DNA from: Marinobacterium mangrovicola
GTDB lineage: Bacteria; Pseudomonadota; Gammaproteobacteria; Pseudomonadales; Balneatricaceae
Assembly (NCBI RefSeq): GCF_004339595.1
Contig: NZ_SMFU01000008.1
Location: 124,001-188,000 of the forward strand
Length of the DNA: 64,000 bases
Reading direction: 5' to 3'
The translations under genes were made by a program, and so were the position numbers. How positions within the stretch are numbered: the stretch's first letter is position 1; the number at the start of each line of letters is the position of its first letter. Positions 6,333-21,430 of the stretch are shown here, one piece after another. Under the pieces are notes generated by a model that was given only the letters and a program-made list of their open reading frames with translations, had not been told where the DNA came from and did no database searches.

Positions 6333-6565
6333 ATTCGTGCACGAATAGGCGCAGGTTTCGCCTGCTGGCGAGTCAAGGATCTTGGACAGCCAAGATCCTT
6401 AACAATCCTAAGCCGCCCCGACAGCTTGATCGGCTGCGCCGATTACCCTGTGCTTCTCGTCTGAAAGAGAGGGATCTCCAAACTCGCCGCTGCGCGGCTC
6501 AGACAGTCGATCCCTTATTCCTCTTTCAGTCTCCGATGCTCGGCTGCGCTGAAGGGGATTCGGGT
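6333..6565 (+). repeat. Multi-hairpin dispersed repeat, copy A
   Basis: This is one of five copies in the window. In order it contains: a variable palindrome (ATTCGT / ACGAAT at 6333-6346); GCAGG-TTTCG-CCTGC; an 11-bp hairpin (6375-6385 with 6390-6400, AAGGATCTTGG / CCAAGATCCTT); ATCGG-CTGCG-CCGAT; and a long hairpin CTGAAAGAG ... CTCTTTCAG whose inner stem here is GGGATC / GATCCC. Other copies carry different but still complementary inner stems. It lies between convergent transcription units. An open frame across it (6302-6577) is judged spurious. Confidence 0.85.
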
Positions 6566-6693
6566 GCGCTCAGTTAGCCTGCTGTTGAATTCATTCTGTT
6601 GGAGCCTATGGGGATAGTTGCAGAAAACCTGCCGAGGTGAGCTGCTGGAAATACAGACCATTATTTACCTTGGTGGATAGGCAAGCCTCGGCA

Positions 6694-15990: not shown

Positions 15991-16213
15991 GCAGGTTTCG
16001 CCTGCTGGCGAATCAAGGATCTTGGACGGCCAAGATCCTTGATAATCCTAAGCCGCCCCGACAGCTTGATCGGCTGCGCCGATTACCCTGTGCTTCTCGT
16101 CTGAAAGAGCGGGACGACTCTTTACCTTAGGGAAAGTCGCCCCTTCGCGGCTCAAACAGCCCTTCCCTTGTTTCTCTTTCAGCCTGCGATGCTCGGCTGC
16201 GCTGAAGGGGAAT
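15991..16213 (+). repeat. Multi-hairpin dispersed repeat, copy B
   Basis: It shares the GCAGG-TTTCG-CCTGC start, AAGGATCTTGG / CCAAGATCCTT, ATCGG-CTGCG-CCGAT and CTGAAAGAG ... CTCTTTCAG elements with the other copies. Its inner arm is longer than in other copies and contains an extra hairpin (CGACTCTTTACC / GGGAAAGTCG). The upstream variable palindrome is not obvious here. It lies between two divergently transcribed genes; no gene is seen in 15929-16322. Confidence 0.85.
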
Positions 16214-16322
16214 TGGTCTGCCCTTAGTTGGCTTGGGTAGAAATTAACCTTGCTTTCAGCGTTTCTTAAAACTTGATGCCTACACTGAATTCAAAGACCT
16301 TGGATCAGGCCGGATCAAAGAG

Positions 16323-18238: not shown

Positions 18239-18480
18239 GTGCTGACGAGCACTGGCTTATTGCAGGTTTCGCCTGCTGGCGAGTCAAGGATCTTGGACGG
18301 CCAAGATCCTTAACAATCCTAAGCCGCCCCGACAGCTTGATCGGCTTCGCCGATTCCCCTGTGCTTCTCGTCTGAAAGAGCGGGACGGGAAACTCACCGC
18401 TTCGCGGTTCAAACAGCCCGCCCCTTATTCCTCTTTCAGCCTGCGATGCTCGGCTGTGCTGAAGGGGATTGGGCTGCGAT
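18239..18480 (+). repeat. Multi-hairpin dispersed repeat, copy C
   Basis: It starts directly after the hydrolase stop codon with GTGCT-GACG-AGCAC and then has the same series of hairpins as the other copies. The inner stem of the long hairpin is GGGACGGG / cCCG-CCCC, less perfect than in copy D. It continues past 18480 into a segment (to about 18530) shared with copy E. Confidence 0.85.
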
Positions 18481-18496
18481 TAGATGGTTTTAGAGT

Positions 18497-18739: not shown

Positions 18740-18979
18740 GTGCTTGGCAGCACTGGCTTAGCGCAGCTTTCGCCTGCTGGCGAGTCAAGGTACTTGTGCG
18801 GACAAGTACCTTAACAATCCCAAGCCGCCCCGACAGCTTGATCGGCTGCGCCGATTGCCCTGTGCTTCTCGTCTGAAAGAGCGGGACGGGAAACTCGGCT
18901 TCGCCTCAAACAGCCCGTCCCTTGTTTCTCTTTCAGCCTGCGATGCTCGGCTGCGCTGAAGGGGATTGGGCTGCGATTA
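18740..18979 (+). repeat. Multi-hairpin dispersed repeat, copy D
   Basis: It opens with GTGCT-TGGC-AGCAC. Its second hairpin is AAGGTACTTGT / ACAAGTACCTT where the other copies have AAGGATCTTGG / CCAAGATCCTT, so both arms changed together. The long hairpin contains GGGACGGG / CCGTCCC. It stands 71 bp from the 3' end of the RT-protease gene and is inverted relative to copy E on the other side. Confidence 0.87.
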
Positions 18980-19050
18980 GATAACCTTTTTCAAAAAGAT
19001 AAAAATAGGCTTAGCCAAAATTACGAGAGAGGAAAAACCGATTTATCTTT

Positions 19051-20883
19051 CTATTTTCTATACGTTTTTCCACAAATTTTACAGTTGAAAAAAACGTTTG
19101 ATTTCGTTTTATAAACGGTTATAGCTTGTTTTTTATCCAAAAAACATTTTTTACAATATGTAAGACCATCAACATAAAACAGATCTTTTTCAATCTCTAC
19201 TTTTGGTTTTTTACTGTGCAATAATGAGTATCTATAAATTTTATTATATTGAGGCGTATTCAAAATACCAGTTAACGTAGATATAGGTACAAAGCCATTA
19301 AATTTATTTTTACCATCATTGATAGCAGAGCCTAGCGTAGCTATCCCAACAACTTCCAACTTTTCATTTAATACCGGACCCCCACTATTCCCATGTATCA
19401 CCGGTATGTCAATAAGCCAGAATCTCTTCCCAAACCTTAATATTGACTGGACTATTTTACCCCTATTAATGTATGCCGTTTCCCCTTCACTATAGTCTGG
19501 ATAACCAACAACTATAATGCTATCTCCAACTCTTAGATTTTTATCGTTTCCTATTGGGAGGGGAGGAATATTATTAAAGTTAGCAGTAGCCAAAAAAATA
19601 GCGATATCTTTTGATGCGCTAGAGTACACAAAAGAAGAATTCATTTTATTTTTTACATCATCTTCTCTGTAAAAATCAACCAACTCATGATTTTCATGAT
19701 CAATACCTTCAACCACATGCTGATTTGTAACAATACCAATATCGTCTAGAAGAAACGCTGATCCCTGCTCACATAAAAGGTTGTTTTCAACTATAAAAAC
19801 TGAGTCTGATATAACTTCTTCAGCCTTTCTAAGGAAAAGATGATTCGGCTTACCCATCGCCAATGTCATTTGATAAGCTAGCTTTCGATATATAGGATCT
19901 GCCCTGCCCCGAACCATTTGTATATAGTTAACACGTCCTTTAACAACATCGATAAAAAACTCACCATCATTTTTAGCTATTGACTTAGCTTGTCTCGGTA
20001 GAATATCTTTTTCTAGATAATTACTAATATAATGTTCTTGTGCCTTAATGGAACCAAATTTTCTCCACGCATGAATCATTGAACGAGTTTTTCTTATAAA
20101 TTTCCGTTCTACATTTGTAAATTCATTGACTGTTATTCCTGTAACCTCTTGTCTCTGACTTCTTCCTTTTAGCCTTACTTTCTCATAGTTTATATTAAAA
20201 CCATTCTCTTTTATTATTCTTTCTAAAGAACTTCCAACTACAACGACACCATCATTATCAAAGTCCAATATGCTTTTTGGTATATATTTTTTATTACAAC
20301 TAAAAGAAAATGTTATGTCGTCAGCATACCTAGTATAATGGCAATTGTTTTTTGCAGCCAATGTCTGAAGTTGCGCATCTAGCTTCCAACATATTAGGTT
20401 AGATATTATCGGAGAAGTAGGTGCGCCTTGAGGTAAAACACCATCCTTACAACATATTTGGGCAAGAACAGTTGCAGCACTATGAGAGTATAAAAAAGGC
20501 TTACTAATAAATAAATTACGCACACGACCAAAATGTATTGTTCCAAAGAAATCTTTCAGATCCACATTAAATACGAACTGTTTTCCTACATGTCTATATG
20601 CATTTGTAACGATACTTCGAGACTCAGTAAAACCATGACATGACAGCTTAGGATTATAATATTTCATAATCTTATCCACTATCATTCTTTGTATTTTCTT
20701 TAGATTTTTCTTTGGAACACTTATCGTACGTTCGCCACCACCTTTTTTCTTAATAGTAAATGTACGATAACTTTTATTGGTCGTTGGGTAAATAAATGAT
20801 GAAAGCTGTTTATAGCTCATACCAAGCTCATTAGCTATTGTCTGAGCAGTCGAGAAAAAGTTTTCGCCAAGAGGTAAGGTCAT
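19051..20883 (-). CDS. Retron-type reverse transcriptase fused to a trypsin-like serine protease and a zinc ribbon
   Basis: The 610-residue protein has three parts. Residues ~1-320 are a reverse transcriptase with the catalytic YADD at 186-189, the LPQGAPTSP motif, and both retron hallmarks: NAYRH (NAxxH) at 94-98 and VTG at 247-249. Residues ~370-545 are a trypsin-like protease with a complete triad: His 389 (TNQHVVEG), Asp 426 (SKDIAIF) and Ser 500 (GNSGGP). The last ~35 residues hold two CxxC pairs (Cys 577/580 and 601/604), a likely zinc ribbon. ATG 20883 is preferred; an in-frame GTG at 20931 would overlap the RNA arm a2. The gene is AT-rich compared with its neighbours, which suggests transfer. 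Retron RTs make msDNA and most retrons are anti-phage systems; here the protease would be the fused effector (inferred). Confidence 0.9.
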   Translation of the reverse strand: MTLPLGENFFSTAQTIANELGMSYKQLSSFIYPTTNKSYRTFTIKKKGGGERTISVPKKNLKKIQRMIVDKIMKYYNPKLSCHGFTESRSIVTNAYRHVGKQFVFNVDLKDFFGTIHFGRVRNLFISKPFLYSHSAATVLAQICCKDGVLPQGAPTSPIISNLICWKLDAQLQTLAAKNNCHYTRYADDITFSFSCNKKYIPKSILDFDNDGVVVVGSSLERIIKENGFNINYEKVRLKGRSQRQEVTGITVNEFTNVERKFIRKTRSMIHAWRKFGSIKAQEHYISNYLEKDILPRQAKSIAKNDGEFFIDVVKGRVNYIQMVRGRADPIYRKLAYQMTLAMGKPNHLFLRKAEEVISDSVFIVENNLLCEQGSAFLLDDIGIVTNQHVVEGIDHENHELVDFYREDDVKNKMNSSFVYSSASKDIAIFLATANFNNIPPLPIGNDKNLRVGDSIIVVGYPDYSEGETAYINRGKIVQSILRFGKRFWLIDIPVIHGNSGGPVLNEKLEVVGIATLGSAINDGKNKFNGFVPISTLTGILNTPQYNKIYRYSLLHSKKPKVEIEKDLFYVDGLTYCKKCFLDKKQAITVYKTKSNVFFNCKICGKTYRK

Positions 20884-20892
20884 AGTATCAAG

Positions 20893-21044
20893 ATAAGGGC
20901 ACGAACAAGGGGCTAATTTTCTCTTATACACTGCAGCACATCGTCAGCGCATCCCAGGAGGCCGAGCTGCAAAAGAAACGTAATAATTACCGCCGCAGAT
21001 AGTCAGCGGAAAGTTAAATCAGAGCCCCTCGCTCGTGTCCCTAT
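20893..21044 (-). ncRNA. Candidate retron msr-msd RNA
   Basis: On the minus strand, just upstream of the RT gene, segment a1 (21042-21023) and segment a2 (20914-20895) can pair as RNA at 19 of 20 positions, three of them G-U, with one A-C mismatch and two further pairs outside. They enclose ~108 nt containing CCGC / GCGG around a nine-base loop (msr-like) and GCAGC / GCTGC enclosing 28 bases (msd-like). Length (~150 nt), strand, and position directly 5' of the RT match known retrons. The branching G and exact msd limits cannot be fixed by eye. Confidence 0.75.
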
Positions 21045-21068
21045 ATATTTCCCTGTTTATATAATTAC

Positions 21069-21074
21069 TGTCAA
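21069..21074 (-). promoter_or_regulatory. Candidate -35 box for the retron transcript
   Basis: TTGACA on the minus strand is a perfect -35 hexamer 27 bases before arm a1. A -10 is less clear: TATATA at 21047-21042 is 21 bases away, longer than ideal. The call is therefore tentative. Confidence 0.45.
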
Positions 21075-21189
21075 GAGTTTACGTCATTTCCTGAGGAGAG
21101 AACCAAAAAACCGCGACTATATAGAGCTTTAAACTATAAGAAATCGGGGGCAGAGTAAAATATCGATACTCCAATCACACCGAAACCAA

Positions 21190-21430
21190 CTAATCGCACC
21201 CCATTCCCCTTCAGCGCAGCCGAGCATCGCAGGCTGAAAGAGAAACAAGGGAAGGGCTGTTTGAGGCGAAGCCGAGTTTCCCTTCCCGCTCTTTCAGACG
21301 AGAAGCACAGGGAAGGCCGCGAAGCGGGCCAAGCTGTCGGGGCGGCTTAGGATTGTTAAGGATCTTGGCCGTCCAAGATCCTTGACTCGCCAGCAGGCGA
21401 AAGGTGCGTTAGACAAGTACGCAGTACTTA
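21190..21430 (-). repeat. Multi-hairpin dispersed repeat, copy E (inverted)
   Basis: Read on the minus strand it has the same hairpin order. The first hairpin is AAGTAC-TGC-GTACTT, the third is GGCC-CGCTTCGC-GGCC instead of ATCGG-CTGCG-CCGAT, and the long hairpin contains GGGAAGGG / CCTTCCC. All are compensatory differences from the other copies. Together with copy D it brackets the retron in inverted orientation. Similarity continues inward to ~21141 (REP-like palindrome). Confidence 0.87.

Follow-up and report, generated by a model that had tools for sequence, protein, structure and literature searches.

Among the retrons described so far, Ec67/Eco2 (type I-C, RT-Toprim, structure 9lm3) is built as a single fusion gene, with an upstream non-coding RNA (ncRNA), a retron reverse transcriptase (RT) and a C-terminal effector (PMC12405507, accessible part). 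According to the same part of that source, the RNA part of the msDNA of Eco2 mediates the self-inhibited assembly of this fused-effector retron, and its likely trigger is the phage nuclease DenB. Fused effectors of all kinds are counted there in 32.8% of 3395 RTs, protease-fused RTs are mentioned among them, and retrons that combine RT and effector in one protein are presented as mechanistically poorly understood. Type XI retrons (PADLOC RT-Protease_XI, PDLC02959/PDLC02960) encode an RT and a trypsin-like protease in one gene, whereas the RT-TIR fusion retrons of type XII carry a TIR effector. Trypsin-like proteases are also found within the anti-phage proteins of Hachiman, AVAST and Lamassu fusions, in which the protease is N-terminal and activates a nuclease encoded next to it (PMC12799240, accessible part). 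The literature searched, from which subscription journals were largely missing, yielded no experimental account of a protease-fused retron.

Here, we analysed a 64,000-nt stretch of Marinobacterium mangrovicola DNA, referred to as the window (GCF_004339595.1, NZ_SMFU01000008.1, forward strand, positions 124,001-188,000; GTDB lineage Bacteria; Pseudomonadota; Gammaproteobacteria; Pseudomonadales; Balneatricaceae). The minus-strand segment 20893-21044 is very probably the msr-msd RNA, that is the template RNA, of a type XI retron, a degree of confidence that applies to the identity of the RNA only. The retron type itself, an RT fused to a trypsin-like protease, is already known. Since PADLOC names it and the accessible part of PMC12405507 mentions protease-fused RTs, the locus is a further case of a known kind, and a good additional example of a little-studied retron type.

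The RT–trypsin-like protease gene occupies positions 19051..20883 of the minus strand and encodes a protein of 610 aa, starting with the ATG at 20883; its reading frame is open upstream as far as a GTG (20931) that falls within the ncRNA. Pfam recognizes an RVT_1 domain (1.4e-23; 20131..20754, minus strand) and a Trypsin_2 domain (9.5e-20; 19342..19764, minus strand). The best PADLOC model is RT-Protease_XI (7.6e-188), which matches residues 10-540 and is covered almost entirely, followed by RT-TIR_XII (3.3e-125) and RT-Toprim_I-C (5.8e-109), both of which match essentially the RT part. Type XII is thus the second-best PADLOC type through the RT part only, and Pfam finds no TIR domain in the window protein. 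Among solved structures, the closest is that of the retron Ec67 protein (9lm3, 2.3e-61, residues 18-283), the effector of which is a Toprim RNase, whereas that of the window protein is a protease. The RT domain carries the YADD motif (residue 186), NAXXH of region X (NAYRH, residue 94) and VTG of region Y (residue 247); the accessible part of PMC6868368 describes YADD as catalytic and the other two as retron-specific. None of the 18 NCBIfam matches of the protein reaches its cut-off.

In the protease part, the positions of a catalytic triad hold H, D and S in all nine uninterrupted RT-protease proteins that were aligned, and the intact-looking H389, D426 and S500 of the window protein are the likely triad. 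The window protein differs from the other aligned proteins by an additional C-terminal CxxC...CxxC element (residues 577-604; 19072..19155, minus strand), possibly a zinc ribbon; the C-terminal tail alone has no NCBIfam match. Unlike in the Hachiman, AVAST and Lamassu fusions, no partner gene is apparent here: the window ORF list, the translations of which were read by eye, shows no evident ORF for a pro-nuclease of the Hachiman or AVAST kind beside the gene.

The G+C content of the gene (33.3%) is far below that of the window (56.6%), and none of the other genomes of the genus (eight genomes, including that of the window) has a comparable RT-protease match; for these two reasons the gene looks acquired. 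Near-full-length matches are present in three of 369 genomes of the class and in four of 398 genomes of the phylum, the genome of the window being included each time, and the fourth and fifth matches, respectively, comprise the RT part only. Two order-level searches each recovered only the genome on which the search was centred (1/295; 1/40). A tblastn search of plasmids gave 861 matching records, of which only four cover at least 80% of the protein. A protein scan of genome contigs found one locus, with the protease part only, and a scan of viral contigs found none. When ten related proteins were scanned with PADLOC, RT-Protease_XI was the best model for eight and RT-Toprim_I-C for two. A loose family-level search, in which 116 of 116 genomes matched, was discarded since it retrieved ordinary proteases and other RTs, and the later searches were therefore run at a strict limit. 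On a Haematobacter plasmid (L050, 2947-6927), the RT-protease gene is followed by an annotated ATP-dependent endonuclease and a UvrD-domain helicase, which we take to be a Gabija-like pair.

The predicted ncRNA lies directly upstream of the gene. It is 152 nt long (20893..21044), runs on the same strand as the RT and ends 9 nt ahead of the ATG, in agreement with a preliminary description of the sequence that had proposed an element of about 150 nt ending some 10 nt before this codon. Its arms, a1 (21023..21044) and a2 (20893..20914), both on the minus strand, form the outer helix. Within the 20 positions proposed earlier (21023-21042 with 20895-20914), 19 indeed pair (16 Watson-Crick, 3 G-U, 1 mismatch), and once the helix is extended to 21044/20893, all but one of its 22 positions are paired (21 pairs, including 3 G-U). 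Its score of 44.5 was compared with those of 200 dinucleotide shuffles of the 330 nt preceding the gene; none reaches it, and the best shuffle scores 30.0. The G-U pairs had also been taken as the mark of an RNA-level helix; since 16 of the 20 positions are Watson-Crick pairs, the G-U minority proves little in this respect, and the case for an RNA helix was instead based on comparison between loci.

The whole 152-nt RNA folds at -60.6 kcal/mol, compared with a mean of -42.9 for shuffled sequences (z -4.75), and none of 200 shuffles is as stable; the longer minus-strand segment 20881-21060 also folds better than expected (z -4.11). Both the msr-like and the msd-like hairpin that the arms had been said to enclose are found in the minimum-energy fold. 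The first of them, a six-pair msr hairpin (20990..21009, minus strand), is preceded by a conserved TTTAACTTTC block (21009..21018, minus strand), which lies between a1 and the hairpin and shares its last base with the first base of the hairpin in alignment A4. The predicted msd stem, or template region (20918..20978, minus strand), rests on the minimum-energy fold: taken alone, it is no better than shuffled sequence, 97 of 200 shuffles being at least as stable. Just 5' of a2 lies a conserved AAGAGAAA block (20918..20925, minus strand), which is invariant in all eight rows of A4 and would be the expected start of the template. At the gathering score, Rfam reports five tRNAs in the window and no model matches 20893-21044. 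The one sub-threshold hit seen at a permissive threshold, of the RT-17 model at 20838-20881, scores 13.8 bits where the gathering score is 40.4, and was taken as chance.

Comparison with seven other RT loci (L043, L047, L048, L074, L076, L040 and L041), which represent six distinct RNAs since those of L048 and L074 are identical, revealed a common plan upstream of the RT genes. It consists of an arm, a TTTAACTTTC or TTAATTTCC block, a hairpin of the form CYRCTG-loop-TGCGGYGG, a variable stretch, the AAGAGAAA block and a second arm. The arms vary in sequence from locus to locus, yet within each locus they remain mostly self-complementary. Several loci were dropped from this comparison, namely L042, L046 and L011 (L042 and L011 match RT-Toprim_I-C best), L053, which lies among IS3 genes, L054, whose RT is annotated in two pieces, and L075, where the hairpin pattern matched without an RT hit. 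In L041 (G151, 568-2205), the RT-protease gene is broken by one in-frame TAA and the ncRNA looks intact; the RNA was kept, and the protein was left out of the domain searches because the gene is disrupted.

In the MAFFT alignments A1 and A2 the a2 arms are out of register, so no counts were taken from them, and a separate arm test was run on each locus instead. In its main form, anchored on the conserved blocks, with bulges allowed and 500 shuffles per locus, the real score is reached by no shuffle for the window, L048, L076 and L074, by one for L040, four for L043, nine for L041 and 71 for L047, the 9-pair arm helix of which is thus, alone, no better than shuffled sequence. In seven of these eight loci, no other a2 pairs better with a1 than the one of the same locus, the exception being again L047. 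Between L048 and L076, two T-A pairs are replaced by C-G, with both sides changed. A bulge-free version of the test was applied to 19 upstream regions, L053 and L054 included, and in 14 of them at most five of 200 shuffles reach the score; L047 is marginal (16/200), and by this measure the arm helix alone is no better than shuffles in L043 (170/200), L048 (57/200), L045 (40/200) and L054 (99/200). Folds of the whole RNA clearly beat shuffles in five of seven loci, those of L043 (96/200) and L047 (21/200) being no better, and when the msd stem is taken by itself, only one of seven loci gives a significant result (L048, 2/200).

That the arms merely form a DNA palindrome or pair by chance, with no role in RNA, is extremely improbable. 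Other inverted repeats do occur in the region, and some relatives have only a weak arm helix, but the compensatory changes, the complementarity maintained locus by locus and the fact that 0 of 200 shuffles match either the fold or the arm helix of the window all speak against such an origin. At the level of sequence, it is this comparative evidence that decides the putative identity of the RNA. The msr-msd reading of 20893-21044 thus gains support, since homologous RT-protease loci keep the pairing at the same position.

The msr hairpin was examined separately in 11 loci, giving nine distinct rows. Four of these loci, on cyanobacterial and Herpetosiphon plasmids, carry more distant RTs and their hairpins were picked by eye; four others, L044, L045, L049 and L050, for which RT-Protease_XI is the best match, were left out since their hairpins could not be confidently aligned by eye. 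All 54 cells of the set form standard pairs, and four of the six pairs show double-sided changes. The covariation score is 0.657, compared with 0.372 in shuffles, and none of 500 shuffles reaches it. When the partners are slid by one to three columns, pairing falls to 22-76%. Other measures are less striking: the number of double-changed pairs is reached by 23 of 500 shuffles and the number of pair types by 472 of 500. On the Herpetosiphon and cyanobacterial plasmids (L051, L052, L055 and L056), a similar hairpin with a TTGATCC-type loop and complementary arms are seen upstream of the RT genes.

A search pattern derived from the hairpins of the RT-protease loci occurs in three of 369 genomes of the class, at one place each and always upstream of an RT-protease gene. 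These three genomes are the ones with near-full-length RT-protease matches, and the reversed control pattern gives no match in the same 369 genomes. In IMG/VR, three stretches match the pattern and two of them precede an RT.

The short distance between the RNA and the gene raises another explanation, in which 20893-21044 would be a folded 5' leader of the RT mRNA that regulates its own translation and serves as no msDNA template. The RNA ends 9 nt from the ATG, and no clear ribosome-binding site is visible by eye ahead of this codon (20884-20930, minus strand). No separate promoter is scored either. The TTGACA that had been pointed out upstream is indeed present (21069..21074, minus strand) as a possible, unsupported -35 element, but it is not part of any sigma-70-like site scored in the promoter scan, which finds nine promoter-like sites over the region, compared with a mean of 9.2 in shuffles. 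On the other hand, the arms, the hairpin and the AAGAGAAA block match the retron plan and accompany RT-protease genes, the RT has both of the motifs called retron-specific in the accessible part of PMC6868368, and the gap between the RNA and the start codon differs among loci. A leader of this kind is highly unlikely.

A similar question concerns priming. The RNA could be a non-retron template, as in defence-associated RTs, copied by protein-primed or other priming and lacking a 2'-5' branch from a G. In the window, a candidate priming G is present at 21020, but across the aligned loci the sequence separating a1 from the hairpin varies, with no invariant G or TAGC-like context, and L048/L074 lack an unpaired G at this place. 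In the accessible part of PMC6868368, most accepted retrons have a priming G in a conserved context, yet one accepted retron likewise has no apparent priming G. Furthermore, the RT models closest to the window protein are retron ones, and its nearest relatives of solved structure, 12 of 12 chains at 1e-10, are retron RTs (10 are retron by name, and two are unnamed RNA-directed DNA polymerases). Non-retron priming is hence quite unlikely.

The retron is flanked by two inverted copies of a dispersed repeat of about 230 bp, one beyond its 3' side (18750..18985, plus strand) and the other beyond its 5' side (21190..21411, minus strand), and lies beside an amidase gene. Further copies are seen in the window at 6349-6576, 15991-16227 and 18249-18485. 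The genome contains at least 40 copies (56 candidates, of which 40 were scored), and the repeat is present in seven of the eight genus genomes and in 13 of 60 family genomes; at the sensitivity used, no plasmid record matches it. Other copies in the genome adjoin ordinary-looking genes.

The same amidase-side site holds other cargo in two sibling genomes. In G041, inverted repeat copies enclose three other ORFs, one of them weakly Mrr-like (E 0.0023, below the Pfam cut-off), and in G040 the site carries a GIY-YIG protein that matches PD-T4-3 at 6.8e-14. The cargo thus observed comprises the retron (window, 18750-21411), a three-gene set (L071, 1350-5309) and a GIY-YIG/PD-T4-3-like gene (L072, 4585-5814). 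In a further genome, G044, other genes occupy the amidase site and the stretch examined has no repeat match. Since the cargo beside the same amidase gene differs among genomes of the genus, the data suggest a repeat-bounded exchange site. A broader proposal, that inverted ~230-bp intergenic repeats bound a slot for swapped single- or few-gene defence cassettes, with the repeats and no integrase as the means of exchange, is tentative and rather doubtful.

Computation directly shows the gene with its domains and motifs, and the fold, conservation and covariation of the RNA. What we infer for the locus is that it is transcribed, makes msDNA, gates its protease and serves in defence, together with the trigger and the target of the protease. 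In the proposed mechanism, the RNA would fold on its a1/a2 arms and be bound by the RT half of the fusion protein. The RT would then copy the msd part, beginning beside a2, into DNA left attached to the RNA (msDNA), and the resulting msDNA-protein complex would hold in check the trypsin-like protease fused to the RT. If a phage damaged the msDNA or the RNA, the protease could be released and might then cleave cell or phage proteins, halting infection and probably sacrificing the cell. Because of established retron biology and the precedent of Eco2, we give moderate credence to the gating step, in which msDNA would keep the protease silent and phage damage would free it; the effector step is likewise proposed by analogy. 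The reading as a whole, a type XI retron RNA with msDNA synthesis, an msDNA-gated fused protease and anti-phage defence, appears likely.

Collectively, the locus combines a single gene and a defined RNA in a compact system that can be compared with related loci, and the shared hairpin could be used as a specific tag to find further members of the type. It poses the question of whether reverse-transcribed DNA may silence a trypsin-like protease, and what that protease would cut.
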